NCBI GenBank assembly: GCA_944382845.1
Contig: CALWNN010000089.1
Coordinates: 1 to 47,520, forward strand
Length of the DNA: 47,520 nt
From: an uncultured Clostridia bacterium
GTDB taxonomy: Bacteria; Bacillota; Clostridia; Oscillospirales; Ruminococcaceae
Direction: 5' to 3'
The notes beneath the pieces are model-generated. The model saw only the letters and a list, made by a program, of their open reading frames with translations. It searched no databases and was not told where the DNA came from. The translations under genes and the position numbers were made by a program. Positions 18,058 through 44,790 of this stretch are shown in pieces (the stretch's first letter is position 1; each line of letters begins with the position of its first letter).

Positions 18058-18088
18058 ATAAATTCACCACTTTCCCCTTAAGATATTT

Positions 18089-19258
18089 TTAATGTGATTC
18101 AAGCTCTTTAAGTGACATATACTGGCTTGTGTCATAGGCATAAAAATCGCCTGTTTTTAGATCGACAAAAGCAACAACCGCCTGCCGTTCGTTATAAAAT
18201 TTCACTCCTTTGTCCTCAAGCACAAAAACCCACATGGGACGGTAGATATTTTCGGTTGATCCGGTTGGTGAAATACATACATTTCTCAGTGAAACTTCTG
18301 TTACGGTGTATTTTTTTAACGGTGCAAGCTTATCTGATACCATCTGCTCAGCAGAAGATAGAGGATAAACCAATCCTCTGATTTTTTCGGAATCAATAAT
18401 GCTGTTTCCATCATACATACTGTTTGTGATAGAAAAATAGTCTGTTTCATTTGAATATGCAATTGTAAACACCGGGCATCTGATTGATTCAACATCGGAA
18501 ATATATCCATAGCTGTTTAAAAGCAAACCATCATATTGATATGTATAATTAAGAACGCAGAATGTGTTTCCCACTGCGCTTTCCATTAATACAATGTTTT
18601 CAAGCACAAGTTCCTCATTCCTTACTCCGCTTAAATATTCCATCATATTTTCATTAATGAATTTATCTGCATTTTCGACAACCTTTTTTATGCTTGCCTG
18701 TTTTCCATCATACGTTGTAAAATATTCGTCCGGAATACCTGTCTGAAAAACATTATAGTGCTTGACTTCTTCACCCTGATCATATTTATTTTCTTCATCC
18801 CACTGAAAGATTTGTAATTCAATATCACGTATGTCAAATGAAAAGGTTCCGCCGGTATACAACGTGGCGGTAAAATTCCCGGTGTAATCATAGATAGCGG
18901 CACAATTAGGTGATGTGTGTATTATTGCGTCTGAAGAAAATTCGGTAACACCAAGCAATTTATTTGCCATTTCAAGTATTTTATCATATTCTTTGGTTCC
19001 GGCATGATGAGAATTATTAAAATCAGCAGTAATACTATAAAATTCATCAGTTGAGGGAATAAGTGGTGTGCAGTCATATTTAATATTATCATATTCACCA
19101 AATTGATAGTTTTCAAGCTCTGCCAAAGCGCTTTTTATACTGCATCTTCTGTACTCTGATTTATTAAGCAATGCAACCAATATAACAGAAACTATGGCGG
19201 CAATAGCTATTATCAAAGCCACAAGAATTATTTTTTTATTCTTTGTCAGTTTTTTCAT
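18089..19258 (-). CDS. Membrane-anchored extracellular protein, paralogue A
   Basis: 389 residues from the ATG at 19258 (MKKLTKNKKIILVAL), chosen because GGGAG lies 8 bp upstream; an ATG 9 bp earlier overlaps that site. One N-terminal membrane anchor (about 8-32) precedes an extracellular region. The conserved C-terminal section is SSAEQMVSDKLAPLKKYTVT, VSLRNV, YRPMWVFVLED and SLKELESH. Repeated in the paralogue at 19445 are YRRCSIKSALAELENYQFGE and the C-terminal section. The family was not recognised; the placement suggests a sensing, substrate-binding or immunity partner of the ABC exporter. Confidence 0.7.
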   Translation of the reverse strand: MKKLTKNKKIILVALIIAIAAIVSVILVALLNKSEYRRCSIKSALAELENYQFGEYDNIKYDCTPLIPSTDEFYSITADFNNSHHAGTKEYDKILEMANKLLGVTEFSSDAIIHTSPNCAAIYDYTGNFTATLYTGGTFSFDIRDIELQIFQWDEENKYDQGEEVKHYNVFQTGIPDEYFTTYDGKQASIKKVVENADKFINENMMEYLSGVRNEELVLENIVLMESAVGNTFCVLNYTYQYDGLLLNSYGYISDVESIRCPVFTIAYSNETDYFSITNSMYDGNSIIDSEKIRGLVYPLSSAEQMVSDKLAPLKKYTVTEVSLRNVCISPTGSTENIYRPMWVFVLEDKGVKFYNERQAVVAFVDLKTGDFYAYDTSQYMSLKELESH

Positions 19259-19283
19259 TTTGAACATCTCCCTTCAATAACTG

Positions 19284-19420
19284 CATATGCTTTATCCGTC
19301 AGATTGTTTGTATAAACAGTTGAAGTAAAGCATAATAAGAGTACGGTAAACACAGCCCCCACAAAGCCGATATTTACGATTGTTTTATTAAGGTGAATTT
19401 TAACACTCTAAATAAGAAAT
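19284..19420 (-). pseudogene. Duplicated, decayed 5' fragment of the ABC permease gene
   Basis: Bases 19310-19391 are identical to 17951-18032 inside the permease at 17194. On the minus strand the fragment still reads NKTIVNIGFVGAVFTVLLLC and more. Its start is lost: the permease TTG reads TTA here, and one base is missing just downstream, breaking the frame with the original initiation region. It runs into the ribosome-binding site of paralogue A. It marks a tandem duplication of an anchored-protein gene plus the beginning of the permease gene. Confidence 0.85.
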
Positions 19421-19444
19421 TTCCTAATTTCTACTTAAGATTTT

Positions 19445-20608
19445 TTAATGTGATTCAAGCTCTTCAAGCGACATAGATTGTCCTGTATCATACACATGAA
19501 CCTCTCCTGATTTCATATCAACAAATCCAACAACCACATTCCGAGTCCCGGAATCCAATCCGTTATCCTCAAGAAGAAAGCACCACATCGGTTTATATGT
19601 ATGATACTTTTCTCCGTAATCACAAATAGATACATTTCTAAGAGACACTTCTGTTACAGTGTATTTTTTTAACGGTGCAAGTTTATCTGAAATCATCTGC
19701 TCAGCTGAGGAAAGTGGATATACTTTTCCAGACAATTTGTTTACATCTTTTATATTATTGCCCTCGTACAAATTATTAGCAAAGCTGAAAACATTATTTT
19801 CATTGGAAAAATCAACAGAAAGACAGGGCGTTCTCACAGATGTTTCATCAGAAACATAACCGTATGAGTTAAGAAGCATTCCGCTGTATTCATACGAATA
19901 CATAAGATGGCAATAACGTTTATTCATATTTGTTTCCATTATGTATATATCAGTCAGAATAAGTTTTTCATTAGATTTACCGCTGAGAAATTCCAACAAA
20001 TTCTCATTGATAAATTTTTCGGAATTAGAAGCAACTGACGCTATACCAGCTTCATTTCCATCACTTGTTTTGAAAGTCTCGTTTGGTATTCCGTTTTTTA
20101 ACACATTATAATGCTTTATAGGTTTATCAGGGTTTTCAATTGCATTATCAACATCTCTGATCGAGTTATAAAAATTTACATCAACATATCCGAAGCAGTT
20201 TGTAACGTAAAAATCACAATTATATCCATTGTTATAATCATAGATGTTTACGCTTCCATGTTCTATATCTTCATAGATATCTACATTAGAAAAATCATTT
20301 ACACCTTTCATTTTATATGCAATTTTTTTGGCTTGCTCAATTGTTTCGTTGCCCTCTAAAGGTTTGATCTCAAATATGGTTGTTATATCATATAAACTAT
20401 CATTGTTAAACAAATTAACGCCACACTCAAACTCAAGATTATCATATTCACCAAATTGATAGTTATCAAGCTCAGCAAGAGCGTCTTTAATGCTGCACCG
20501 TCTGTATTCACTTCGTGTAAGAATAACTATCACTATAACAGATATTATAACAACAATTATGATTAACGCTGCAAGAATAATTTTTTTATTCTTTGTCAGG
20601 TTTTTCAT
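19445..20608 (-). CDS. Membrane-anchored extracellular protein, paralogue B
   Basis: 387 residues, same architecture as paralogue A: a basic N-terminus (MKNLTKNKKIILAALIIIVV), one membrane anchor (about 8-30), the shared YRRCSIKDALAELDNYQFGE block, and a shared C-terminal block (SSAEQMISDKLAPLKKYTVT, VSLRNV, YKPMWCFLLEDNG and SLEELESH). The middle third differs considerably between the copies. AGGGAGCTG precedes the ATG. It lies upstream of paralogue A with the permease fragment between them. Function unknown. Confidence 0.7.
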   Translation of the reverse strand: MKNLTKNKKIILAALIIIVVIISVIVIVILTRSEYRRCSIKDALAELDNYQFGEYDNLEFECGVNLFNNDSLYDITTIFEIKPLEGNETIEQAKKIAYKMKGVNDFSNVDIYEDIEHGSVNIYDYNNGYNCDFYVTNCFGYVDVNFYNSIRDVDNAIENPDKPIKHYNVLKNGIPNETFKTSDGNEAGIASVASNSEKFINENLLEFLSGKSNEKLILTDIYIMETNMNKRYCHLMYSYEYSGMLLNSYGYVSDETSVRTPCLSVDFSNENNVFSFANNLYEGNNIKDVNKLSGKVYPLSSAEQMISDKLAPLKKYTVTEVSLRNVSICDYGEKYHTYKPMWCFLLEDNGLDSGTRNVVVGFVDMKSGEVHVYDTGQSMSLEELESH

Positions 20609-21129: not shown

Positions 21130-21502
21130 TTTCTACATCTCCTTTATTTTTAATATATTATGTCAAAACGATTGCGTGGCATATAATACAAGTCTATCAT
21201 TGGAATCGCCCCCTTATAATTCTACATACATAGTACCATATCTTGAAACTATTTGCAATGGGTTTTAACAAAGTTTGTGAAATTTATCAAATTCAATTAC
21301 AAATAATTGTATGTTTTATACAATTCCAATTTAAGTATGTTAACCAAATCGTCGAGGAGTTTTGCTCAGATTTAAAATAAAATTATAGCACACAAAAAAC
21401 TAATATTTAAATTTACGCAAAAAAATCCTCTTTTTAGATGGTTGGACTTATGGATTAGCGGAAACAAACAAATTCAGACCAACATTCTTCAAGCGGAACA
21501 AC

Positions 21503-22675: not shown

Positions 22676-22722
22676 GTTATCATCTCTCTTGTTTGAATTT
22701 TTGGGATTTGCCCAATTAATTT

Positions 22723-22850
22723 AAGTCGGAGCAAAGCGTGATAATGATATCTGCTTGTCATCTTTTTTGAATTGTATGAAAATCCGAGTAAAAAATATTG
22801 ACTCAGAATTTTTCGTCACAAAGCATTTTTATCTAAGTTTGCTCATTATC
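22723..22850. repeat. Partial copy of the dispersed structured repeat
   Basis: The left end TCGGAGCAAAGCGTGATAAT is the same as in the long copies at 38.5 kb and nearly so at 33.2 kb. TTTGCTC at 22838-22844 could close the stem with GGAGCAAA at 22728-22735. The right half of the element is missing. It lies directly before the DUF368 gene. Confidence 0.6.
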
Positions 22851-25233: not shown

Positions 25234-25311
25234 TGGGGTGGATAGTCGGATTCGAACCGACGGTCTTCAGTGCCACAAACTGACGCGTTAACCAACTACG
25301 CTATACCCACC
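25234..25311 (-). tRNA. tRNA-His (GTG)
   Basis: Cloverleaf on the minus strand beginning GGTGGGTATAGCG. Anticodon GTG sits in the loop TTGTGGC, with T-loop TTCGAAT. The extra 5' G (G-1) pairs with the discriminator C, a hallmark of tRNA-His. The 3' CCA is encoded. Confidence 0.96.
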
Positions 25312-25371
25312 ATATAAAATTAGTTATATAAAAATTATGCGCTGAAACCTATATGGCTCCAGCACATAGTC

Positions 25372-25448
25372 TGGCGCGCTTTACAGGACTCGAACCTGTG
25401 GCCTACTGCTTAGAAGGCAGTTGCTCTATCCAGCTGAGCTAAAAGCGC
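25372..25448 (-). tRNA. tRNA-Arg (TCT)
   Basis: GCGCTTTTAGCTCAGCTGG start, anticodon stem ACTGC/GCAGT with TCT in the loop, T-arm ACAGG TTCGAGT CCTGT and an encoded CCA. Confidence 0.96.
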
Positions 25449-25526
25449 ATACATAAACTTCACCGGAATAATCAAACTACACCATACATAAAAATTGCAC
25501 CATCCGGTGCTATTTTCATTTAAATG

Positions 25527-25600
25527 TGGAGCGGGTGATGGGAATCGAACCCACACAACCAGCTTGGAAGGCTGGGATTCTACCATTGAACTACACCCGC
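25527..25600 (-). tRNA. tRNA-Gly (TCC)
   Basis: GCGGGTGTAGTTCAATGGTA start, anticodon stem CCAGC/GCTGG with TCC in the loop, T-arm TGGG TTCGATT CCCA and an encoded CCA. First tRNA of the three-gene transcript. Confidence 0.96.
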
Positions 25601-33124: not shown

Positions 33125-33154
33125 TTAAAAGCTCCTTTCTGAAAAAGCATGGTT

Positions 33155-33361
33155 TAAATCGGAGCAAAGCGTTGATAATTACATCTCTTTCAGAAATATT
33201 GCTTAATCACGCTGCGACGAAAAGTAACTCGTCGCAGTTTGCTCCTCAGGGAATTCAGTATGGGATTTCCTAATAACCCCCCACTGACAGACCAAATTAA
33301 ACCCGCCTCCTATAAGTAGGCAGGTCTGCCGAAAACTCGTCAGGGGGACATCGGCGACTTG
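33155..33361. repeat. Structured dispersed repeat, copy 1
   Basis: Plus-strand order: GGAGCAAA (33161-33168) pairs with TTTGCTCC (33238-33245). Inside are CGTTGATAA with TTAATCACG, and CTGCGACGA (33212-33220) with TCGTCGCAG (33229-33237), making a closed three-way junction. It is followed by a TTCAGT...ACTGA arm, a CCTCCTATAAGTAGGCAGG arm and the conserved end GGGGGACATCGGCGACTTGG. It lies just upstream of rsmE. Copies 2 and 3 share the right half and ends. No protein frame is visible. Confidence 0.75.
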
Positions 33362-33654
33362 GTTATATATTATCATATTTATCTTAATATTTCAATATAT
33401 TTGGTGTTTTTTTTGATTTATTTTCATATTATTATTTTTAATTTTCAATTAGATATCACACAACAAACACAATAATACGGTATCATTATAAATGTCAAAG
33501 GAAAGAAATTGAAACATCAAAATGTTTCAAATGTTTTTTCCGGGAATCTTTTTAAGTTTCATTTCTTTACATTGATATGATGGCTTTTACCCCAAGCCTC
33601 ATATATATCTGATAGAAATATCTATCAGCTTCTCCCCTATAATTTATGCTTGAT

Positions 33655-33688
33655 GGCTGTTTCCTCACGGAAGCAGCCGCTTTTTTTG
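33655..33688 (+). terminator. Orphan plus-strand terminator
   Basis: GGCTGTTTCC / GGAAGCAGCC stem followed by gcttttttt. There is no plus-strand gene before it, so it may end a small RNA in 33370-33650. That interval is AT-rich, with a perfect 8-bp hairpin (CTGATAGA...TCTATCAG) and a TATAAT at 33638-33643, but no supported gene. Confidence 0.5.
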
Positions 33689-33703
33689 TCATAATCTCGG
33701 AAC

Positions 33704-33730
33704 AAAAAGCGCCGGATATCCGACGCTATT
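33704..33730 (-). terminator. Terminator of the 165-residue membrane protein gene
   Basis: AGCG-CCGGATATCCG-ACGCT forms a stem followed on the minus strand by TTTTTGTTCC. Confidence 0.75.
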
Positions 33731-33732
33731 TG

Positions 33733-34230
33733 TTATACATATATCTTATAGTTGGATTCGTTTTTAAATTTATACATTGAGCAAAAGCCAAGTATTGCAG
33801 ATGAGATACACATAAGAAAATTAACTGCGTTTGCCCATATCTCTTTTACGGCGAACATATCAATCCTAACCATGATCACTGTGAAATTGTCGAAAAAGAG
33901 GTAACAGCAAGCCAAAAGATAGACCAACGCAAAAACAGAAACTGAAACAATCTTTGCAGCACAAGACAGGTTTAACTTGCAGAATTTTATAAGTATACCC
34001 ATGCTTGTACAGTACAAAAACAATCCTGCACACTCGATAGCAACTCCAATAACGCTGTATACAGGGTCAACATAAATAAACGGCGTAAGTGAAGTCGCAC
34101 CGTTAAACGTATCAAAAACCTCGCCTGTAGGTTTAAGCTCAAATATGTAGCTTCCCACAAGGAAATATCCCGAAAGCGCAACAGCTGATAAAATAACAGC
34201 CGGCCAATAAAAAATTTTTTTCACGGTCAT
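33733..34230 (-). CDS. Four-helix membrane protein of unknown function
   Basis: 165 residues with four membrane segments (about 8-28, 55-80, 92-113, 130-152). Two loops are extracytoplasmic or cytoplasmic; the second membrane segment has two cysteines. No motif was recognised. Transcribed alone between a terminator downstream and gpmI's terminator upstream. Confidence 0.6.
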   Translation of the reverse strand: MTVKKIFYWPAVILSAVALSGYFLVGSYIFELKPTGEVFDTFNGATSLTPFIYVDPVYSVIGVAIECAGLFLYCTSMGILIKFCKLNLSCAAKIVSVSVFALVYLLACCYLFFDNFTVIMVRIDMFAVKEIWANAVNFLMCISSAILGFCSMYKFKNESNYKIYV

Positions 34231-34270
34231 TACCTTTCCAATACAATAGCTTTACACTATAAGAATATAA

Positions 34271-34304
34271 AAAACGGACAGGCTCTCAAGACAAAGCCTG
34301 TCCG
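34271..34304 (-). terminator. Terminator after gpmI
   Basis: Perfect 9-bp stem GGACAGGCT / AGCCTGTCC followed on the minus strand by GTTTTTT. Confidence 0.9.
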
Positions 34305-34315
34305 GAGAAATTCAA

Positions 34316-35902
34316 TCAGATCATTGAGGCTTCCCAGCAATCGGGCGCTTCAAGTCCAAGAAGCTTTACAACCGTAGGAGCAACGTTTGCAAGACCATAT
34401 TTTGTGCTGTCAGCATCAATAATTTCATGTCTTGTTTCTTTGTCCCAGATAATAAACGGAACTCTGTTTAAAGAATGTGCTGTTCTAACCTGTATGTTAC
34501 CCTTCTTGTTCTTTTCGAGCATTTCATCTGCATTTCCATGGTCAGCAGTTATAAGAACAGTACAGTTAAATTCCTCTGCAACCTTAAGAAGTCTTGCAAG
34601 TGCAAGGTCAACAGCCTCAACTCCTATAATCGTTGCGTCCATATTTCCTGTATGGCCAACCATATCGCCGTTAGGATAGTTACATCTTAAAAAGTCATAC
34701 TTTTCGCTCTTTATAGCTTCAATAAGGTCATCTGTTACCTCAGCAGACTTCATCCAAGGACGCTGATCGAAAGATACCTTATCAGAAGGAATCTCCTTCC
34801 ATGTTTCCAATTCTTCGGAAAATTTTTCAGACTTGTTTCCATTCCAGAAATAAGTTACATGACCAAACTTCTGTGTTTCAGAAACAGCGTATGAGTTAAG
34901 TCCCGCCTTAACAAGTACCTCGGAAAGGGTGTTTGTAATTTCCGGAGGATTAACAAGGTAGTTCTTAGGAAGGTTAAGATCTCCATCGTACTGGAGCATA
35001 CCCGCATACATAACCTTTGGGTTGTAGCCCGACTTATCAAATGCGTTAAAATCAGGATCGTCAAAAGCCATCGAAAGTTCGATTGCACGGTCTCCTCTGA
35101 AGTTAAAGAGAATAACGCTGTCATTATCGCAGATCCTTCCTACAGGTTCGCCATTTTCAGCAATAACGAACGGAGGAAGGTCCTGATCTATTGCGCCGGT
35201 TTCTTCACGGAGAGTTGTGTAAGCTTCGGCAGCGCTGGCAAACTGTCTGCCTTCCCCTCTTACATGAGTATCCCAACCCATTTTTACCATGTTCCAGTCA
35301 GCCTGATATCTGTCCATGGTTATCTTCATTCTTCCTCCGCCGGAAGCGATCTTTCCGTCAAAGCTTTCATCGTTAAGTGAAGCAAGGCAGTTTTCAAGAT
35401 CCTCGATATAAGTCATACCGGAGGTGGCCGGAACATCTCTTCCATCAAGAAGGATGTGACACCTTACCTTTGCAATTCCCTCTTCCTTTGCCCTTTTTAT
35501 CATTATTTTAAGATGTGCGATATTAGAATGAACGTTACCGTCTGAAAGAAGTCCGATAAAGTGCATTGTGGACTTATTTTCAAGGCAGTTGGCAACAAGC
35601 TGCTTCCAAGTTTGCGAACCGAACATTTTTCCGCTTTCAATAGATTCGTTTACAAGCTTTGCACCCTGAGAATATATCTGTCCGCAGCCCAAAGCATTGT
35701 GACCTACTTCTGAATTACCCATATCATCGTCGCTTGGAAGTCCCACAGCATCGCCGTGAGCCTTAAGAGAAGTATGAGGGTATTCTTTAATAAGCATATC
35801 AAGAGTAGGCGTATTTGCTTCTGTTACAGCATCTCCGATTCCCGATTTAGAAATTCCAACGCCGTCCATTACAACAAGAACAACAGGTTTTTTAGTTGAC
35901 AT
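34316..35902 (-). CDS. gpmI: 2,3-bisphosphoglycerate-independent phosphoglycerate mutase
   Basis: 528 residues, slightly longer than the usual ~510. The alkaline-phosphatase-fold metal sites are visible: VVMDGVGISKSG (first Asp), GNSEVGHN with the catalytic Ser, and the late VLITADHGNADEML and HSLNRVPFIIWD. A flexible phosphatase/transferase domain arrangement is implied by the length. It converts 3-phosphoglycerate to 2-phosphoglycerate using Mn. It follows tpiA with a 45-bp gap and AAAGGAAA before the ATG, giving the order pgk, tpiA, gpmI in transcription direction. Confidence 0.95.
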   Translation of the reverse strand: MSTKKPVVLVVMDGVGISKSGIGDAVTEANTPTLDMLIKEYPHTSLKAHGDAVGLPSDDDMGNSEVGHNALGCGQIYSQGAKLVNESIESGKMFGSQTWKQLVANCLENKSTMHFIGLLSDGNVHSNIAHLKIMIKRAKEEGIAKVRCHILLDGRDVPATSGMTYIEDLENCLASLNDESFDGKIASGGGRMKITMDRYQADWNMVKMGWDTHVRGEGRQFASAAEAYTTLREETGAIDQDLPPFVIAENGEPVGRICDNDSVILFNFRGDRAIELSMAFDDPDFNAFDKSGYNPKVMYAGMLQYDGDLNLPKNYLVNPPEITNTLSEVLVKAGLNSYAVSETQKFGHVTYFWNGNKSEKFSEELETWKEIPSDKVSFDQRPWMKSAEVTDDLIEAIKSEKYDFLRCNYPNGDMVGHTGNMDATIIGVEAVDLALARLLKVAEEFNCTVLITADHGNADEMLEKNKKGNIQVRTAHSLNRVPFIIWDKETRHEIIDADSTKYGLANVAPTVVKLLGLEAPDCWEASMI

Positions 35903-35947
35903 AAATTGATTTTCCTTTCCTATTGCAGTAAAATTAAGTTTTAATAA

Positions 35948-36724
35948 TTAACCGTTTACGGCAGCCTGAACGATAGTATTGAAGTCCTCAGCTTTAAGTG
36001 AAGCTCCGCCGATAAGTCCTCCGTCAACATTTTCCTTTGCAAGGAGTTCTGCGCAGTTTTTAGCGTTCATTGAGCCTCCGTACTGGATAGTAACTGCCTG
36101 AGCGGTCTCTTCGTCATAGATCTTAGCAAGTGTAGCTCTGATAAATGCGCAAACTTCTTCAGCCTGATCTGCCGTTGCGGTCTTACCTGTTCCGATCGCC
36201 CACACAGGCTCGTAAGCGATAACTGTCTTCTTAACGTCCTCAGCGGAAACGTCAAAAAGATCAAGCTTTATCTGTCTTGCAATAACTTCCTCAGTGATAT
36301 TACACTCTCTTTCCCAGAGAAGCTCACCAACGCAAACTATAGGCTTGAGTCCGGCAGCAAGAGCAGCCTTTGTTCTCTTATTTACAGTTTCATCAGTTTC
36401 ACCGAAGTACTGTCTTCTTTCACTATGTCCGATAACGACGTATTCAACACCAAGTTCAATCAGCATATCAGCGGAAATTTCTCCGGTAAATGCGCCGCTT
36501 TTTTCAAAATGAACGTTTTCAGCTCCAACCTTAACGTTTGAGCCGGCGGTTGTATTTACAGCAGTTTCAAGGTTCGTAAAAGGCACGCAAGCGATAACTT
36601 CAACATTACCTTCAGCATTTGCAACAAGCGGCTTGATTGCTTCAAGAAGCTCACGAGCCTCAGGTCTTGTCTTGTTCATTTTCCAGTTTCCGGCGATAAT
36701 AGCCTTTCTGACGTCTTTTTTCAT
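35948..36724 (-). CDS. tpiA: Triosephosphate isomerase
   Basis: 258 residues with the TIM-barrel catalytic residues: Lys in AGNWKMNK, His in VVIGHSERRQYFGE, Glu in VIAYEPVWAIGTGK. The phosphate-binding loop is in VTIQYGGSMNA and VDGGLIGGASL. It interconverts dihydroxyacetone phosphate and glyceraldehyde 3-phosphate. It is the middle of the pgk-tpiA-gpmI set, although a 395-bp gap separates it from pgk. Confidence 0.97.
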   Translation of the reverse strand: MKKDVRKAIIAGNWKMNKTRPEARELLEAIKPLVANAEGNVEVIACVPFTNLETAVNTTAGSNVKVGAENVHFEKSGAFTGEISADMLIELGVEYVVIGHSERRQYFGETDETVNKRTKAALAAGLKPIVCVGELLWERECNITEEVIARQIKLDLFDVSAEDVKKTVIAYEPVWAIGTGKTATADQAEEVCAFIRATLAKIYDEETAQAVTIQYGGSMNAKNCAELLAKENVDGGLIGGASLKAEDFNTIVQAAVNG

Positions 36725-36792
36725 AGTTTAAAACTCCTTTAAAATTTAAATTATATCAAACACGATAATTATACTACAGATAAAGTGTTTTG

Positions 36793-37027
36793 TCAAATAT
36801 TAACCAAAATCAAGGGATAAAACACTGCCGCCGTTGCAAATCCGAAAAGAATCAAATCTGTGGCTGTGACAAGCACCTCTAAAGTGTCGGCGTCATCTCC
36901 ATCATTAAAATAAGGCTTTTGTTCTCGAGGAAAACCTCATATTGGTTATCAGCATAATAGCACACTTTTACAGTTCTGTAGCTATCAATGCTTGTTGTTA
37001 TACACACTACCCACAAAGCAGACGGCT
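36793..37027 (-). pseudogene. Possible decayed short gene between pgk and tpiA
   Basis: On the minus strand one frame (37027-36879) reads SIDSYRTVKVCYYADNQYEV and FLENKSLILMMEMTPTL before a stop. A second frame overlapping its end (to 36793) reads NDGDDADTLEVLVTATDLIL then FGFATAAVFYPLILVNI. Together they look like one frame broken by a shift, ending in a membrane-type helix, with no start codon or ribosome-binding site. This could also be conserved non-coding DNA. The rest of 36725-37119 holds the pgk terminator and nothing else supportable. Confidence 0.35.
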
Positions 37028-37082
37028 AAACGCAGTATAGCATTTATCATATCCTTAATCCACGGCTCCGTTAATCAAACAA

Positions 37083-37115
37083 AGAGCAGACATTTCTGTC
37101 TGCCCTTTTTTGCAA
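37083..37115. terminator. Terminator after pgk
   Basis: GCAGACA TTTC TGTCTGC hairpin with T-runs on both sides. Confidence 0.75.
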
Positions 37116-37119
37116 AAAA

Positions 37120-38334
37120 TTACTTATCAGCAATAACGTCGATTCCGGGAAGAACCTTACCTTCAAGGTATTCAAGAGAAGCTCCTCCGCCTGTTGAGAT
37201 ATGGCTCATCTTATCAGCAAATCCAAGGCTTATTACAGCGGCAGCCGAATCTCCTCCGCCGATGATAGTTGTAGCGTCTGTTTCTGCAAGGCTCTTAGCA
37301 ACAGCGATAGTTCCCTTTGCAAGTACAGGATTTTCAAAAACGCCCATAGGTCCGTTCCATACAACTGTCTTAGCGCTCTTTACAGCCTCTGCATACATTT
37401 CAGCAGTTTTGGTTCCGATATCGAGTCCCATCTTATCGGCAGGAATTGAATCCATAACTTCTACTTCGATAGGAGCATCAATAGGGTCAGGGAATGAAGC
37501 TGCAACAGTTGTATCAACAGGAAGAAGAAGAGTCTTTCCTTCTTTAGCAGCCTTTTCAATCATTTCCTTACAGTAGTCTATCTTTGTATCGTCTACAAGT
37601 GAAGTACCAACTTCCTTGCCCTGAGCCTTGAGGAATGTGTATGCCATTCCGCCGCCAATAATAAGTGTATCACACTTTTCAATAAGATTATTTATAACAT
37701 TGAGCTTGTCTGCGACCTTAGCGCCTCCGAGAATAGCAACAAATGGTCTTACAGGGTCTTCAACTGCATTTCCGAGGAAGTTTATTTCCTTCTGCATAAG
37801 ATATCCTACAGCAGTTTCCTTGACAAACTTTGCAACGCCTGCAGTTGAAGCATGAGCTCTATGAGCGCTTCCGAAAGCGTCCATAACAAATACCTCATCA
37901 TCTACAAGATCAGCAAGTTCTTTAGCAAACTCTTCGCCGTTCTTTGTTTCCTCAGCGCCTCTGAATCTGGTGTTTTCAAGAACAACAATTTCTCCTTCGT
38001 TCATTTCAGCAACAGCTTTCTTAGCGTTTTCACCAACAACTGTATCATCCTTTGCAAATGTTACCTTTGCGGAAACAAGTTCAGCAAGTCTGTCAGCTGC
38101 GGGCTTGAGTGAAAACTTATCCTCAGGACCGTTCTTCGGTTTTCCAAGATGTGAGCAAAGAACAACCTTTCCCCCGTCTGCTACCAGCTTGTTGATTGTG
38201 GGAAGAGCAGCGGTAATTCTGTTGTCGTTAGTGATCTTTCCGTCCTTAAGCGGAACGTTAAAGTCAACTCTTACAAGAACCTTTTTGCCCTTTACATTAA
38301 TGTCGTCAACAGTAACTTTGTTTAAACCTGCCAT
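37120..38334 (-). CDS. pgk: Phosphoglycerate kinase
   Basis: 404 residues from the ATG at 38334 ([20 protein letters not shown]); the in-frame start 42 bp upstream lacks family similarity. Motifs: [20 protein letters not shown] (substrate Asp/Asn), [10 protein letters not shown] (SHLGRP-type), [15 protein letters not shown], and the nucleotide-binding [11 protein letters not shown] and GGGDSAAAV. It makes ATP from 1,3-bisphosphoglycerate. It is first of the glycolytic set. A copy of the structured repeat and a partial copy lie upstream. Confidence 0.97.
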
Positions 38335-38368
38335 AATATAGACATCCTCTCTTATTAATATTTGATTT

Positions 38369-38392
38369 CGGAGCAAAGTAAGCTTAGCTCCG
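38369..38392. repeat. Short hairpin derived from the repeat's left end
   Basis: CGGAGCAAAG...CTTAGCTCCG: a GGAGC / GCTCC palindrome with the same CGGAGCAAAG start as the long copies, 35 bp upstream of the pgk ATG. Confidence 0.45.
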
Positions 38393-38508
38393 TTATTTAC
38401 GTTATGAAGCTGTCAGAATCTTAACAACTCACATTATATATTTTATAACATACAGAGAAAAATTTCAAGTGCTTTTACAAAAAATTTTCATACTGCAAGT
38501 ATTTATTT

Positions 38509-38730
38509 AAATCGGAGCAAAGCGTGATAATGATGTCTGCTTATCAGCATAGTCGTCTGCTTATCAGCATAGTCGTCTGCTTATCAGCAGACAGGCTTAA
38601 TCACGATTGCGACAAAAAGAAACTCATCACAGATTGCTACTCAGGAATTTCGGTATAGGATTCCCAATAACCCCACCGAAAGACTGAATTGACCCTGCCG
38701 AACACTCGACAAGGGGACATCGGCGACTTG
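38509..38730. repeat. Structured dispersed repeat, copy 2 (with internal 20-bp expansion)
   Basis: It begins ATCGGAGCAAAGCGTGATAA and ends GGGGACATCGGCGACTTG, directly touching the stop of the DegV gene. The inner stem region holds nearly three direct repeats of a 20-bp unit (GTCTGCTTATCAGCATAGTC at 38535, 38555 and 38575); the last unit alone forms a GTCTGC/GCAGAC hairpin. The right arm of the closing stem has an extra base (TTGCTACTC). Confidence 0.75.
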
Positions 38731-38731
38731 C

Positions 38732-39604
38732 TTATCTCTTTTTTGATTTAAAAATAACGCCCGTTACTTTCGGACCTGCATTTATTGAAATCGCAGCGCC
38801 TATCTGAAAACAATCATCCGGGGGATACCCAAGTCTTTTTGTCATTGCCTTTACCATATCATCTTTAACTGACTCATCGCTGCCGTAAACAATACAGTAT
38901 GGGGTCTGAGGTATAATTTCCTCCATGGTAAGTTGTTCTATCTTAGGGACAACAGCCTTATCCCCTCTTACCTTGTCAGCAGTTTTAATTTCTCCTTCGC
39001 AAATCCGCATTATCGGTTTAAGTCCTAAAACTTCACCGACAAAAGCCGCAGCAGATGGTATTCTTCCTGATTTTTTGGCATATTTAAGGCTATACGGAGC
39101 AAAATAAATAACCACCTTAGAAATCCAGTCATTTATGAAATCCACAGCTTCCTTTGCAGTTGCACCTTTCTGGATCTTTACTGCCGCCTGACAAATCGGA
39201 TATCCATAAGCTCCCGTATAATTTGCGCTGTCAATATTATAAATGTGAAATTTGTCCTTAGCATCCGGGTGTTCCTCGTAAAATTGCTCGGCAGCTAAAA
39301 CTGCGTTTGAAAAAGTAGCGGAACCGTTTGCATTAATTGTAACGTTGATGATATCAGTATAGCCTTCGGAATAGTATTTTTCAAATTGTTCCGTATATTC
39401 AAAAATTGTTATCTGAGATGTAACGGGAATCCCATCAAAGTTATCAAGAATTTCATAGAATTTCTCATTGTCGAAATCCTCTCTTGAAACATAACTTTTG
39501 TCACCGACAGCAAGCTTGAAATTCATCACCTTGATATCATATTCCTTTTCCTGCTCATATGTTATATCACTTGCTGAGTCTGTCATTATTTTGATTTTCG
39601 GCAT
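38732..39604 (-). CDS. DegV family fatty acid-binding protein
   Basis: 290 residues with the DegV N-terminal MTDSASDIT and conserved GIPVTSQIT, YSLKYAKKSGRIPSAAAFVG and LGLKPIMRICEGEIK. The family binds fatty acids and can act as the FakB partner of a fatty acid kinase, or bind other lipids. No FakA is in the window. AAGGTAC precedes the ATG. It lies 48 bp after the trmL stop in transcription order. Confidence 0.88.
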   Translation of the reverse strand: MPKIKIMTDSASDITYEQEKEYDIKVMNFKLAVGDKSYVSREDFDNEKFYEILDNFDGIPVTSQITIFEYTEQFEKYYSEGYTDIINVTINANGSATFSNAVLAAEQFYEEHPDAKDKFHIYNIDSANYTGAYGYPICQAAVKIQKGATAKEAVDFINDWISKVVIYFAPYSLKYAKKSGRIPSAAAFVGEVLGLKPIMRICEGEIKTADKVRGDKAVVPKIEQLTMEEIIPQTPYCIVYGSDESVKDDMVKAMTKRLGYPPDDCFQIGAAISINAGPKVTGVIFKSKKR

Positions 39605-39652
39605 ATTTTGTACCTTCCTTATTTTTTATTTTGTGTATCCGCACAATGCAGA

Positions 39653-40150
39653 TTATTTCCATTCATACTGAGTAAGCTTTCCTTCACGGTCAAGGTCAGG
39701 AAACCCCCACTGTCTGAGGACCTCATAACAGCCTATGGCTACGGTATTTGAAAGATTAAGGCTTCTCAGGTTATTCCTCATAGGAACTCTCACGCAGCTT
39801 TTTCTGTTTTCAGACAAAAGCTTTTCGCTCAGTCCTTTGTCTTCCCTTCCGAAAACAAGATAACAGCCGTTTTCATAATTGACATCGCTGTAGGTATTTT
39901 CGCCTTTAGTTGTAAAGTAATAATACGGTCCGCTGTTTTTCTCAAAAAATTCATCAAGGCTTTCATATTCAAAAATTTTAAGTTTATTCCAATAGTCAAG
40001 TCCTGCCCTTTTTAAATGCTTGTCGGAAATTTCAAATCCATAAGGCTTTATAAGGTGAAGGACTGCGCCTGTCACAGCGCAGGTCCTTGAAATATTCCCG
40101 GTATTTTGTGGTATCTGAGGTTCAACAAGGACAATATTAAGTTTATACAT
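39653..40150 (-). CDS. trmL: tRNA (cytidine(34)-2'-O)-methyltransferase
   Basis: 165 residues, the minimal SPOUT length of TrmL. Motifs: VEPQIPQNTGNISRTCA near the N-terminus, LVFGREDKGLSEKLL, and RSLNLSNTVAIGCYEVLRQW at the trefoil knot. It 2'-O-methylates the wobble base of tRNA-Leu. It is 20 bp downstream of the amidase gene, on the same transcript. Confidence 0.93.
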   Translation of the reverse strand: MYKLNIVLVEPQIPQNTGNISRTCAVTGAVLHLIKPYGFEISDKHLKRAGLDYWNKLKIFEYESLDEFFEKNSGPYYYFTTKGENTYSDVNYENGCYLVFGREDKGLSEKLLSENRKSCVRVPMRNNLRSLNLSNTVAIGCYEVLRQWGFPDLDREGKLTQYEWK

Positions 40151-40170
40151 ATTTTTGACTTCCTTTTATT

Positions 40171-40899
40171 TTAAACTGCACCGCAGTAATTATTAATTCC
40201 CGCAAATATAGTAAACGCAACTTTTTTTTGATATTCATCAGTCTGCAAGCGTTGAGCCTCCTCAGGATTTGATAAAAATCCGCACTCGACCATAACAGAC
40301 GGGTTTTCACAATAATAAATTAAATAAAGCTCACTTCCAGAAAGCTTAATCTCCCTGTTATTTTCGGGCTGAAGATCATCGATGAATTCCTGCCTTAATG
40401 CAGCGGCAAGCGCTTCGCTTTCCGGGTTAGTTTCGGAATAAAACATCTGTGCGCCCCCGTACTGAGGATCGGTAAACTGGTTCTGATGAATCGAAAGACA
40501 GATTGCATTTTCTCTTGAATTGAACAAATCAAGGCGGTTTTTCATATCAGATTTTTTCTGGTTGCCAAGCCCGATAACTCCCTCATCGTGGATCGAGGTA
40601 TCTGTTTCTCTTGTTATTAATACTTCATAACCGTATGCCTCAAGCATTGACTTTAAATAAAGAGTTATATTAAGGTTTATTCCCTTTTCCGGAACACCAT
40701 TATATGAAACGCAACCTCCGTCCGCACCTCCGTGACCTGCGTCAAGAATTATACATGGAAGCTCTCTTTTCGCTGTTACAGAAGCAGAAGCAGGCAGACT
40801 ATCGTCAAACACCTGAAAACTCATATTATCGGCTACAAGAAATACAACAAGATAAACTGCCATAACTGCAAGAGTGGCAGCTATTTTTGCTTTGGACAT
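40171..40899 (-). CDS. cwlD: N-acetylmuramoyl-L-alanine amidase, CwlD-like
   Basis: 242 residues from the ATG at 40899, with AGGAGAGG upstream (an earlier in-frame ATG at 40923 lacks it). An N-terminal membrane anchor (about 5-22) precedes an Amidase_3 domain with its zinc ligands: IILDAGHGGADGG (His), the Glu in PEKGINL, SIHQNQF (His), and catalytic VMVECGFLSNPEEAQ. Size and single anchor match CwlD, which makes muramic-delta-lactam in spore cortex; a general cell-wall amidase is the alternative. Confidence 0.82.
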   Translation of the reverse strand: MSKAKIAATLAVMAVYLVVFLVADNMSFQVFDDSLPASASVTAKRELPCIILDAGHGGADGGCVSYNGVPEKGINLNITLYLKSMLEAYGYEVLITRETDTSIHDEGVIGLGNQKKSDMKNRLDLFNSRENAICLSIHQNQFTDPQYGGAQMFYSETNPESEALAAALRQEFIDDLQPENNREIKLSGSELYLIYYCENPSVMVECGFLSNPEEAQRLQTDEYQKKVAFTIFAGINNYCGAV

Positions 40900-41249
40900 A
40901 AATTCTCCTCTCCTTATGCACATTCTGCAAATTCTTTTTAGTAAAATCTATGCCAGACAGGAGAAATTTATGTTTTACATATAAAATCACAAAAGCTTTC
41001 AATAATTATTCTACCCAATGCAAAATGACATGATAATCCGTTATAGGGCAGTTACAACAGATTACATAGAACAGCATAAAGCATAATAATCATACAAATT
41101 ATTATATCATATACAAGTAAAAATTTCAACCGTTTGAAATATTATTTCAGGTAAACGATTTCCAACCGACTTGGTTTGTAAAAAATCCGTAAAAAGACAG
41201 AATTAATTACTTGATTTTTGTGAAAAAGATTAAAGTTTTAAGAAAGCTA

Positions 41250-41278
41250 TTGTAATAAGATTAAAATTAAGTTATAAT
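41250..41278 (+). promoter_or_regulatory. Predicted promoter of the prs-like gene
   Basis: TTGTAA (41250-41255), 17 bp, TATAAT (41273-41278). The region 40930-41240 is AT-rich with no supported gene. Confidence 0.7.
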
Positions 41279-41284
41279 GTAATT

Positions 41285-41370
41285 GTTGTATTGCGTCCGT
41301 TTATGCAGAACATAAACGGTGCGATCGGGAACGTTTATTAAATAGGTCCTACAAAATTTAATAAGTGAGG
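41285..41370 (+). promoter_or_regulatory. Structured leader of the prs-like gene
   Basis: Hairpin CCGTTTATG / CATAAACGG (41298-41324) within a ~95-nt leader, followed by GGTGCGATCGGGAACG. It could be a regulatory RNA; no known class was matched. Confidence 0.4.
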
Positions 41371-41378
41371 TTTTTTTT

Positions 41379-42545
41379 ATGGTTATGGAAAGCAAAAGCA
41401 AAATTCTGTTTAACCCTCAGACAAGAGTTGCCCCCCTTGGCTTTATCGCAATGAACGGCACTCAGGAACTTGCCGCTAAAATCGACAAGTATCTTGTTTC
41501 ATGGGGCACACAGGCAGGCACTGACAATGTTGACAGCTATCTTATAGACGTTGGCTGTCCGAGATTTGCTTCAGGCGATGGAAAAGGTATTATAAAATCC
41601 ACCGTGAGAGGAAAAGACCTCTTTATTATTGTTGACACAGGAAATTACAACTGCACATACACAATGTTCGGCAAAGAGAATGCTATGTCTCCAGACGACC
41701 ACTATCAGGATCTTAAAAGAATTATTCAGGCGGCAGGTGGAAAGGCAAACAGGATTAACGTTATCATGCCTATGCTTTACGGCGGTCGTCAGCACAGAAG
41801 AAGCTACCGTGAATCACTCGACTGTGCTGTTGCTCTTCAGGAACTTGAAGCAATGGGAGTTTCAAATATTGTTACTTTTGACGCTCACGATCCAAGAGTT
41901 CAGAACGCTGTTCCACTTATGGGCTTTGACAACATCATCCCTTCTTATCAGGTTTTGAAATCCATTTTCAAAAACGTTCCCGATATTATTATTGACAAGG
42001 ATCATTTCATGGTTATTTCTCCCGATGAAGGAGCTATAAATAGAAATATGTATTATGCTTCTGTTCTCGGGGTAAATCTTGGAATGTTTTACAAGAGAAG
42101 AGATTACTCTACTATTGTAAACGGAAGAAATCCTATTGTGGCTCATGAGTACCTTGGCAACTCAGTTGAAGGCAAGGACGTTTTCATAGCTGACGATATT
42201 ATTTCTTCAGGCGAATCAATGCTTGACATTGCCGTTGAGCTTAAAAAGAGAAATGCAAAGAGAATTTTTGCATATGCGACTTATGCTATCTTCACAAACG
42301 GACTTGATACATTTGACAAAGCATATAAAGAAGGCAAGATCGACGGAGTATTCGGCACAAACCTCACATACCGCACTCCGGAGCTGTTAAGCCGTCCATG
42401 GTTCAATGAGGTTGATGTATCAAAGTACATTGCATACTTTATTGCTTCATTAAACCATGACCTTTCAATTTCAGAAATTATAGACCCAAGCGTAAAGATA
42501 CATTCACTTCTTGAGGCTCACGGTCAGCTTCCAAAGAATCAGTAA
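41379..42545 (+). CDS. prs: Ribose-phosphate diphosphokinase, long form
   Basis: 388 residues, longer than the ~315-residue bacterial enzymes. Recognisable family features: IIVDTGNYNCTYTMFGKE, then MPMLYGGRQHRRSYRESLDC (ATP-binding flexible loop), VTFDAHDPRVQNA and the PRPP-binding ADDIISSGESMLD. It makes PRPP from ribose 5-phosphate and ATP for nucleotide, His and Trp synthesis. The extra length is in insertions and a C-terminal tail (SVKIHSLLEAHGQLPKNQ). It is monocistronic. Start: the upstream ATG at 41379 after AGTGAGG; a second ATG two codons later is also possible. Confidence 0.85.
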   Translation: MVMESKSKILFNPQTRVAPLGFIAMNGTQELAAKIDKYLVSWGTQAGTDNVDSYLIDVGCPRFASGDGKGIIKSTVRGKDLFIIVDTGNYNCTYTMFGKENAMSPDDHYQDLKRIIQAAGGKANRINVIMPMLYGGRQHRRSYRESLDCAVALQELEAMGVSNIVTFDAHDPRVQNAVPLMGFDNIIPSYQVLKSIFKNVPDIIIDKDHFMVISPDEGAINRNMYYASVLGVNLGMFYKRRDYSTIVNGRNPIVAHEYLGNSVEGKDVFIADDIISSGESMLDIAVELKKRNAKRIFAYATYAIFTNGLDTFDKAYKEGKIDGVFGTNLTYRTPELLSRPWFNEVDVSKYIAYFIASLNHDLSISEIIDPSVKIHSLLEAHGQLPKNQ

Positions 42546-42572
42546 ACAAAAACAAAGCGTATGCTTATGTGA

Positions 42573-42640
42573 CCCCCTTTTGTTAGTTTCAATTTTGGTA
42601 TATTTATATTTTATATACCGCATTGTCTAATAAAAGGGGG
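42573..42640. terminator. Long hairpin after the prs-like gene
   Basis: CCCCCTTTTgTTAG / CTAAtAAAAGGGGG closes a ~40-base region with a second inner hairpin (GGTATAT/ATATACC). It may terminate prs on the plus strand, though the following T-run is weak. 42641-42740 shows nothing else. Confidence 0.5.
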
Positions 42641-42741
42641 CATTTTCATATTCAAAAGAAAAGCATACAAGAGGTATGCAGATGGATTAAAGATCATGAT
42701 TACAGAAACAATAACCAGATTTAAGTAGATATCAGCATAAC

Positions 42742-42772
42742 AAAAGTGACCAAGATTCATCTTAGTCACTTT
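42742..42772 (-). terminator. Terminator of tyrS
   Basis: AAAGTGAC...GTCACTTT with AAGAT/ATCTT inner pairing; the minus strand continues TTTTGTTATG. Confidence 0.75.
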
Positions 42773-42842
42773 GCACAAGTTATTTTAAAATTTTGTCTAA
42801 CTATTTTTGAAGCAGAGCAAACAGATCTTCTTCAAAGTTTAA

Positions 42843-44060
42843 TCATTTCAAAATTACCTTATGGAAAACCTTCTTGCCTTTTTTTATCACAACAAAATCA
42901 GTAATTTCAATAAATGCGTTTGGATCGGTTATTTTAACATCATCAACTGAAACTCCGCCCTGAACGACAAGCCTTCTTCCCTCAGACTTTGACGGAATAA
43001 GAGAAGCTTTCATCATTAACTCGAGAATATTGATTTTTCCATCGTCAAGATCAGATGAAGTAATTTCTGTTGTAGGCATATCGTTGGAATTTCCCTTTCC
43101 ACCAAACACAGCCTTTGCAGTTTCATCAGCTTTTTTTGCCTCTTCCTCACCGTGAACAAGCTTGGTAAGTTCGTACGCAAGAAGCTCCTTAGCCTTATTG
43201 AACTGAGCCCCTTCCATTGTTTTTTCCATTTCTTCGATCTCTTCGATAGGAACAAAAGTAAGCATTTTAAGGCATTTTATAACATCGCTGTCCGAAACGT
43301 TTCTCCAGTACTGATAAAATTCGTATGGAGATGTTTTTTCAGCGTCAAGCCAAACCGCACCCTTTTCGGTTTTACCCATTTTCTTCCCTTCAGAGTTAAG
43401 AAGAAGGGTAATCGTCATTGCGTGCGCATCCTTACCAAGTTTTTTACGGATAAGTTCAGTACCTCCAAGCATATTTGCCCACTGATCATCGCCGCCGAAC
43501 TGCATATTGCAACCGTACTCCTGAAAAAGCTTATAAAAGTCATACGACTGCATTATCATGTAGTTAAATTCAAGAAAAGTAAGACCACGTTCCATTCTTT
43601 GCTTATAACATTCAAAAGTAAGCATTTTATTTACTGAGAAACAAGCGCCTACTTCCCTCAGAACATCAACATATTTCAGGTCAAGAAGCCAATCGGCATT
43701 GTTTACAACAAGAGCTTTTCCATCTGAAAAATCAATAAATCTGCTCATCTGCTTTTTGAAACATTCTACATTGTGCTGTATAGTTTCGGGAGTAAGCATT
43801 TTTCTCATATCAGACTTACCTGAAGGGTCGCCTATCATACCTGTTCCGCCGCCTAAAAGAGCGATAGGCTTATTCCCTGCCATTTGCAGACGCTTCATAA
43901 GGCAGAGTGCCATAAAATGACCTACATGAAGGCTGTCAGCTGTAGGATCAAATCCAATATAGAAAGTTGCCTTTCCTTCATTTATCATTTTACTTATTTC
44001 TTCTTCGTTAGTAAGCTGAGCCAAAAGTCCTCTTCTTTTAAGTTCTTCAAATACTGTCAC
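42843..44060 (-). CDS. tyrS: Tyrosyl-tRNA synthetase
   Basis: 405 residues, full length. Class I signatures: HIGH-like HVGHFMALCLMKRL after FYIGFDPTADS, and KMSKS-like KKMGKTEKGAVWL. Tyr-binding residues lie in ALLGGGTGMIGDPSG and FNYMIMQSYDFYKL with GGDDQWANMLGG; an S4 RNA-binding domain occupies the C-terminus (LVVQGGVSVDDVKI). It charges tRNA-Tyr. A GGAGGAAT site precedes the ATG. Expression is under a T-box leader ~470 bp upstream. Confidence 0.97.
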   Translation of the reverse strand: MTVFEELKRRGLLAQLTNEEEISKMINEGKATFYIGFDPTADSLHVGHFMALCLMKRLQMAGNKPIALLGGGTGMIGDPSGKSDMRKMLTPETIQHNVECFKKQMSRFIDFSDGKALVVNNADWLLDLKYVDVLREVGACFSVNKMLTFECYKQRMERGLTFLEFNYMIMQSYDFYKLFQEYGCNMQFGGDDQWANMLGGTELIRKKLGKDAHAMTITLLLNSEGKKMGKTEKGAVWLDAEKTSPYEFYQYWRNVSDSDVIKCLKMLTFVPIEEIEEMEKTMEGAQFNKAKELLAYELTKLVHGEEEAKKADETAKAVFGGKGNSNDMPTTEITSSDLDDGKINILELMMKASLIPSKSEGRRLVVQGGVSVDDVKITDPNAFIEITDFVVIKKGKKVFHKVILK

Positions 44061-44229
44061 TTTAAATTCCTCCGTTAATTCAATTTTACTTCCAAAATAT
44101 ATATTCTAAGCTTAATCTCAGCCGAAAATATTAATACTAATCATAAACGATGAAATCAAAAACTGATTTCACGGATATCACGTCCTTTCACGTTACTAAT
44201 ACTAAAAAATTATATTTCCTTCAAAGCTG

Positions 44230-44413
44230 TTGCTTAATGACCCTGCAACGATTGTAACTTGTCATTAACAATGACTTGTCATCGTTTAGAGTTTGCTCCT
44301 CAGGGGGTTCAGTATGGGATTCCTAATAGCCCTCACCGAAAGACTGAATTGAACCCGCCTCCTACTTATTAGAGGCAAACCTGCCGAATACTCGGCAGGG
44401 GGACATCGGCGAA
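44230..44413. repeat. Structured dispersed repeat, copy 3 (5'-truncated)
   Basis: The left GGAGCAAA arm is absent. The right half is well preserved: GTTTGCTCCTCAGGGGGTTC, then GGTTCAGT paired with ACTGAATTGAACC, a CCTGCCGAatacTCGGCAGG hairpin and the end GGGGGACATCGGCGA. The inner hairpin has a different, expanded sequence (AACGAT...ATCGTT). It lies between the T-box terminator and tyrS. Confidence 0.75.
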
Positions 44414-44532
44414 TCGGATATAGACTATCAACAAAATAAAGAGAGAAGCATAAATACTATCATCACCAAAGCAGTTTCACACTTCAAAAAAGACTGCGCT
44501 GAACTTAGCAAGTACCCCCTGTTTTAAAAAAC

Positions 44533-44790
44533 AAAAAACCTCCGGCAAGCAAAGCTTGTCAGAGGACGAATTAACCTTTGTTAAACCGTGGTACCACCTC
44601 AATTTACAGACAAAATGTCTGCCTCATTGGCACTGTAACGTGTGCAAACGGACTTCCCTACTCTTATTTTCAAAAAGTCGGCTCAAAAGATGTATTCACC
44701 GTGGTCTGTTTTCTTTCTCACACCAACCGAAAGCTCTCTTCAAAACAGATATTCACAGCTACTTGTTCCCGTCATAGCCATTTATGATTA
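44533..44790 (-). promoter_or_regulatory. T-box leader for tyrS (specifier UAC)
   Basis: On the minus strand the T-box core GAGGTGGTACCACGG (about 44587-44601) is followed by a terminator hairpin, CCTCTGACAAGC / GCTTGCCGGAGG with TTTTTT (44565-44533). Stem I upstream contains a specifier region with TAC (44694-44692) followed by A, matching tyrosine and the downstream tyrS gene. Uncharged tRNA-Tyr should stabilise the antiterminator. Confidence 0.88.

Follow-up and report, generated by a model that had tools for sequence, protein, structure and literature searches.

Small repeats that carry no gene are common in bacteria, and the mover of many of them is not known. One such repeat is bcr1 of the Bacillus cereus group, a structured sequence of about 150 nucleotides (nt) that is presumed to be mobile and has no known transposase. 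For IS200/IS605 insertion sequences, PMC6006769 describes insertion into the lagging-strand template, a target in the left flank and recognition through hairpins. The repeats of Streptococcus pneumoniae show a weaker strand bias, of about 61%, that follows the coding bias, and miniature inverted-repeat transposable elements (MITEs) are defined by target duplications, as set out in PMC3049150. Here we describe a family of hairpin-rich repeats from a 47,520-nt stretch of DNA (the window), which is contig CALWNN010000089.1 (C89) of the 2.14-Mb draft genome, in 93 contigs, of an uncultured Clostridia bacterium of the Ruminococcaceae (genome G000). A preliminary description of three copies had taken them for a structured RNA or a mobile RNA-like element. 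The mobile half of that proposal is well supported: the repeats are mobile DNA elements, with more than 100 copies, sharp ends, places in congeners that lack the element, and near-identical copies in a related genome (G403). The other half, a functional RNA, is not supported, given little wobble strand preference, no preference of the top strand in folding and no match in Rfam. On balance, we consider it probable that the repeat is a non-autonomous mobile DNA element which is moved as single-stranded DNA and is IS200/IS605-like in behaviour.

Boundaries, flanks and sites without the element

The three starting copies, all on the minus strand, have a common end and core and stand 5' of rsmE, pgk and tyrS (Pfam identities), as had been described, while their extents had to be corrected as follows.

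33153 to 33362, minus strand: copy 1, complete, 5' of rsmE, with its left end at 33362 and TTTAAA as its right end at 33153 (BLAST, end motifs)
33363 to 33366, minus strand: ATAA adjoining the left end of copy 1, the putative target tetranucleotide (left-end logo, tandem junctions)
38506 to 38731, minus strand: copy 2, complete and with TCTGCTGATAAGCAGAC hairpin modules in tandem, flanked by a degV-family gene and pgk (BLAST, end motifs)
38732 to 38735, minus strand: ATAA adjoining copy 2 (end of the open reading frame (ORF), Pfam DegV)
about 44205 to 44417, minus strand: copy 3, in the tyrS leader between a T-box and the tyrS start

Read on the minus strand, the window copies run from (T)ATAACCAAGTCGCCGATGTCCCCCTGCC... 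to ...GCTTTGCTCCGATTTAAA, apart from slight deviations in copies 2 and 3. The first two bases of copy 2 are GC and not the usual YC, and copy 3 has a decayed right end without TTTAAA and a left flank of ATAT, not ATAA. The degV-family gene upstream of copy 2 (38732-39604) has the TAA at 38732-38734 as its stop codon. A covariance model (R1), whose training set includes copies 1 and 3, has its core matches at 33241-33366, 38636-38735 and 44295-44421.

The set of elements is far larger than three. With up to three mismatches, 133 left and 157 right ends were found in G000, and reversed-pattern controls gave 0 and 2 matches, respectively; a BLAST search of the same genome with copy 3 returned 48 matches. 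The collected set consists of stretches among the matches listed (the first 100 of each pattern search) rather than of every copy, and it holds 133 left ends at up to five mismatches, 85 of which have a right end within 420 nt. The length is 79-313 nt in 82 of these 85 complete copies, and by crude ORF calls one of the 112 copies examined lies inside a called ORF. Many G000 copies are found close to contig ends, at a distance of no more than a few hundred bases (C7, C82, C2, C22, C10, C8, C13, C48, C50, C63, C80, C84 and C85). The repeat may thus have broken the assembly, and the true copy number of G000 may be higher.

The edges are sharp and read, on the element strand, (T)ATAA/YC-AAGTCGCCGATG ... 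GCTTTGCTCCGATTTAAA/, where a slash marks the edge. In a logo of 123 left ends (up to four mismatches) ATAA, which lay outside the left-end search motif, is conserved at 95-98% and the preceding T at 84% (103/123), with background composition farther out, and at 77 right ends conservation ceases directly past TTTAAA. Three tandem junctions read GATTTAAA/YC-A; as the second copy has no ATAA there, the tetranucleotide is more likely flank than part of the element. No target duplication was found: the best candidate among 936 combinations of length (2-6 and 8) and offset occurred in 3 of 77 copies. Short copies have weak, imperfect terminal inverted repeats (ATAACCAAGTCGCCGA and TTTAAATCGTCGCCGA).

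Aligned places without the element exist in congeners for all three copies, namely in G004 for copy 1, in G001, G002 and G003 for copy 2, and in G003, G001 and G004 for copy 3, with other DNA at the place in G001. The same AGATAAGC gene end that adjoins copy 2 is carried by G001 without the element. One G403 copy, which separates an upstream gene from a gene whose sequence reads as dnaE, is missing from all eight congener loci parsed (of 11 returned), and the copies of this genome are 96% identical at the median over 134 nt (n = 18). The TAA of ATAA is the exact stop codon of the upstream gene in 16 of the 66 copies that have a sense upstream ORF. Insertion 3' of ATAA often keeps the host's TAA stop and, in one genus, a TATAAT -10 box, so that many insertions would be harmless.

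Orientation relative to genes and replication

The preliminary description placed every copy upstream of a gene and in the same orientation relative to it, which turned out to be a tendency only. Of the 91 copies with a called ORF on both sides (among the 112 examined, from the same crude calls), 67 have the downstream ORF on the element strand, and of 55 co-directional gene pairs 45 have the element in the sense direction. Orientation also relates to replication: the top strand is on the G-rich strand, as judged by contig skew, in 79 of 100 G000 copies, and this bias still holds between divergent or convergent genes (27/35; 27 to 8, p = 0.002). In nine other genomes, local skew gave 47 to 24 for the 71 of 86 copies with enough skew, most strongly in G403 (14 to 1). 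One antisense artefact was excluded from the local-skew and fold counts.

Hairpin architecture and covariation

The body of the element is made of swappable, expandable hairpin modules between fixed ends. A common plan of the subfamilies read comprises a closing stem, hairpin 1 (ATGTCCCCCGCC..GGCGGGTTCCAT), a long hairpin (TCAGNNNTTTCAGTGGGGG..CCCCCACTGAAANNNCTGA) and hairpin 3 (GGAGC..GCTCC), with additional nested or repeated hairpins in G000 copies. In some of these copies (L130, L154, L118) the long hairpin encloses an extra one, GGTTGTTTTTATCTTTGATAAAAACAAC, which varies slightly. As single-stranded DNA, copies 1, 2 and 3 fold more stably than shuffled sequences (z = -4.8, -2.9 and -4.0), so their structure exceeds chance.

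Arms that change in sequence and keep pairing, noted from the three copies alone, proved real in a larger alignment (A2) of 17 sequences from nine genomes, from which one G205 and two G000 sequences were left out for their extra modules. In hairpin 1 and the long hairpin 88% of cells pair, and both-sided changes occur in 13 of 29 pairs, against a mean of 6.4 after shuffling (0 of 500 as high) and 3-7 in slid controls; kinship can lift counts above such shuffles, and the slid controls preserve relatedness. The long hairpin holds 12 of the 13 covarying pairs. RNAalifold on another alignment (A1) reported 8 pairs only. The closing stem varies in sequence among subfamilies yet pairs in most of them, with strands picked by eye, and a test with unselected windows gave a genome-level p of about 0.003 over ten genomes, with no excess in G000 and G369 and little in G403. 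In 9 of 16 hand-picked subfamilies the 3' side of this stem pairs with the flanking AAY, again with strands picked by eye.

A form selected as RNA is expected to show G.U pairs clearly above A.C mismatches. In the cross-genus alignment of 17 sequences, the ratio of G.T to A.C was 17 to 16 cells, and for 145 copies that share descent and come mostly from G000 the long hairpin gave 62 to 44. The top strand folds better than the bottom strand in 72 of 151 copies, as DNA palindromes would. Because wobble pairs show little strand preference and the top strand is not preferred in folding, the hairpins suit folded DNA, or correction of imperfect palindromes, better than an RNA product, although some RNA effect is possible. 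In agreement with the earlier remark that no nameable family fitted, Rfam 15 gave no match to the element at the gathering threshold. At a relaxed threshold, copies 1 and 3 gave weak matches to unrelated families, none of them credible.

Distribution among related genomes

BLAST found the element in one of 61 genomes, that of the window itself. A covariance-model search of related genomes, as the preliminary description had proposed, detected sister subfamilies across the family and the order. At E ≤ 0.01, R1 had matches in 26 of the 397 family genomes, the window's own included, and in 14 of 126 genera. Since E-values are per genome, about 4 of the 26 are expected by chance at this threshold, and 7 of them are weaker than 0.001. 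At E ≤ 1.4e-4 there remained 19 genomes of the family, own included (18 further genomes). The order-level search matched 12 of 394 genomes at E ≤ 1e-4, 7 of these in four other families. With 150 candidates scored, single genomes had as many as 74 matches, some of them antisense to the palindrome; G256 had 24 R1 matches, G190 had 30 and G171 had 16. The genomes have subfamilies of their own, and G171, G293 and G152 have more than one. R1 can miss copies, as in G329, which has BLAST copies and no match at E ≤ 1e-4.

A pattern search of genome contigs, from which records of the own or near genomes were possibly excluded, gave two unrelated single matches that were judged to be chance. Plasmid and phage records had no match to the G000 element, plasmid records none to the G403 element and phage records none to the G190 element. 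In IMG/VR there were 0 matches to the G000 end and 0 to the strict core hairpin; a full-length member was found there on a 94-kb viral contig (L369, 11235-11406, minus strand), between two genes, and a partial one on another (L370). The former contig is a possible vehicle for the element, and no relative spanning both sides of its site was found. The open-licence PMC literature searched (titles and abstract starts) named no such family for this bacterial group.

A branch that seems to abut promoters

Two genomes of one genus, G171 and G293, gave 20 matches, which comprise 13 of a TATAAT class, 6 of an ATAAC class and one antisense artefact that was dropped. Copies starting at TATAAT, by which the class is defined, thus make up 13 of the 19 usable ones. 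A -35 box (at least 4/6 of TTGACA at 16-18 bp) stands before 11 of these 13. Of the remaining TATAAT sites at those loci 21 of 78 have one (p = 0.0001 for the difference), and of the ATAAC-type copies 1 of 6. The upstream 60 nt of the 13 copies are unrelated (ungapped identity with a median of 0.35 and a maximum of 0.53), by a crude measure that gives the element's own first 60 nt only 0.47, and a same-strand ORF of at least 60 amino acids lies downstream in 13/13. With unrelated upstream sequence and -35 boxes, these copies seem to occupy separate promoters, to keep TATAAT, and they would head the transcript. This placement may reflect either targeting or the survival of harmless insertions. 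A naive junction rule for promoter association, which picked the wrong ATAA in TATAATAAATG and gave p = 0.34, was replaced by the explicit TATAAT rule. In G171, one copy (L233, 1501-1840) stands between promoter-like sequence and a tRNA gene.

Proposed movement and alternative explanations

The mechanism that we propose draws on the ends, the flank and the strand, by comparison with IS200/IS605. Like IS200/IS605, the element would move as single-stranded DNA: a HUH-type enzyme, or one that acts in a similar way, would excise it from the lagging-strand template and join it to such a template 3' of ATAA. The hairpins would be the recognition structure, and the internal modules would expand, swap and shrink. 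The enzyme may come from another element, or it may no longer exist in these genomes. As the element is abundant, recently active in some genomes, present in at least five families of one order and clean-ended, its enzyme should be findable.

Several observations weigh against movement of this kind. PF01797 (Y1_Tnp) shows no association with the element: it was matched in 8 of the 19 genomes that have the element and in 5 of 19 others, and had no match in G256, G190, G171 and likewise G205. The IS200/IS605 copies read in G403, G369 and G160 have unrelated ends. No guide tetranucleotide was seen 5' of the hairpin foot, where the inspection was by eye only. Copy 3 is flanked by ATAT, and the GC past ATAA, common to G001 and copy 2, leaves the cut point open by two bases; because the empty sites come from congeners rather than from the same species, exact cut points are deduced. 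The orientation bias could follow the genes in the co-directional pairs, of which 40 of 47 are on the leading side, and the 7 pairs with lagging-side genes are uninformative (4 to 3). With a coding bias of similar size, the replication signal rests on the 35 copies between divergent or convergent genes, and local skew was 5 to 7 in G256 and 3 to 3 in G171.

The search for a helper covered Y1 and reverse transcriptases and identified none; DDE, IS110 and other families were not searched. RVT_1, like Y1, showed no association (4/19 element-bearing and 4/19 other genomes), and in both comparisons the other genomes are those without an R1 match, which may hide missed copies. Among the 22 listed of 80 neighbour clusters present in at least two genomes, no telling common neighbour gene was found, only household genes or spurious frames. 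The sole PF01797 match found in G000 is a decayed IS200-type transposase fragment with stops (L198, 251-484).

Among other explanations, a classical MITE, derived by deletion from a DDE insertion sequence and moved by the transposase of the latter, with imperfect, short inverted repeats at its ends and with hairpins as a by-product, would agree in size, intergenic location and copy number and would account for the imperfect terminal repeats of short copies. We consider it unlikely, since a candidate duplication occurred in at most 3 of 77 copies at any offset tested and a conserved flank on the left only is not typical of DDE elements, whose transposases were not searched for. The preliminary description had expected an element without RNA function to reveal itself by target duplications and random orientation; no duplication was seen and the orientation is biased, not random.

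Another alternative is a functional RNA family (leader RNA or small RNA) spread by duplication, whose folded transcript would act on the downstream gene. The covarying stems, the sense orientation in co-directional pairs (45/55), the slight G.T excess in the related copies (62 to 44) and the elements of G171 and G293, which start at a -10 box and would be the first part of a transcript, are all compatible with it. The G.T excess is absent across genera (17 to 16), however, folding does not prefer the sense strand (72/151), Rfam has no match, the flanking genes are unrelated household genes, and genus mates have the same genes without the element, all of which makes such an RNA distinctly unlikely. 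The promoter-abutting copies would also ensure transcription of new copies if the element were RNA-mediated, with its transcript copied by a reverse transcriptase and inserted just 3' of other promoters; a closing stem with short hairpins and one long hairpin is reminiscent of retron RNAs. This is very improbable, given that RVT_1 is as frequent in other genomes as in bearers and was not found in G256, G190, G171, G293, G205, G152 and G403, and that the ATAAC-type copies of G171 and G293 do not lie at promoters (1/6).

Moved single-stranded DNA thus remains the preferred reading, and a more specific form of it can be drawn up, which we regard as doubtful. The repeats would belong to a class of single-stranded DNA elements found in several bacterial families and moved by an unrecognised non-Y1 enzyme, and AAY of the left junction would pair with an RTT in the 3' arm of the closing stem. 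One branch would have shifted from TATAAC-type targets, often stop codons, to TATAAT and would land in active -10 boxes, leaving the promoter intact and making the element the first stretch of the transcript. Possibly, an open promoter exposes single-stranded DNA and is the reason for landing there. If true, this branch would amount to a natural promoter-seeking insertion system and would account for the addition of structured leaders to many unrelated genes.

Other features of the window

The window contains the following further features related to the element or to its surroundings.

44559 to 44784, minus strand: T-box leader upstream of tyrS, context only (Rfam RF00230, 135.8 bits)
22715 to 22760, minus strand: element fragment with the right end and one hairpin arm and no recognisable left end (BLAST, 91% to copy 2)
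21344 to 21376, plus strand: possible 33-nt remnant with the two ends only, CCAAATCG ... GATTTAAA, after TTAA (sequence, weak BLAST match)

The tyrS transcript would carry both the T-box and copy 3. Judged from its sequence, the 33-nt stretch is perhaps an extreme deletion remnant of the element. Elsewhere in the window, tandem duplicated genes occupy 17913-20608, in blocks 71-93% identical and about 1355 nt apart, and three consecutive tRNA genes lie on the minus strand at 25237-25600.

Comparison with known systems

By description the element resembles bcr1, which is likewise structured and presumably mobile and occurs in another host group. It shares small size, lack of genes, structure and intergenic location with MITEs such as RUP, ERIC and Correia, but differs from them, and from what defines a DDE-type MITE, in that no target duplication was found alongside its weak inverted repeats. 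BOX of Streptococcus pneumoniae, as portrayed in PMC3049150, is alike in its modular build, its variable number of boxB units, its stem-loops and its presence on the leading strand (about 61%). The ends of BOX are compared there to ISSpn2 (PMC3049150), whereas the element has an ATAA left flank and core hairpins that covary across genera, and the two are set apart on the basis of these descriptions. REP sequences are hairpins of 21-65 nt and IS200/IS605 elements are insertion sequences with tnpA, while the element has a multi-hairpin body of mostly 79-313 nt and does not take the form of 21-65 nt palindromes flanking a RAYT gene. IS200/IS605 elements make no target duplication, and likewise none was found for this element. 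It further agrees with them, and with PATEs, in the flank conserved on the left only, from which the cut point is deduced, and in the lagging-template orientation, although not in every genome. It differs in that no Y1 (HUH) transposase with matching ends was found in the same genome, no Y1 transposase is associated across genomes and no guide motif was seen. What the element has in common with IS200/IS605, PATEs and REP/REPIN (TnpA-REP, RAYT), as these are presented in PMC6006769, is a short left flank, hairpin ends, lagging-template orientation and many intergenic copies.

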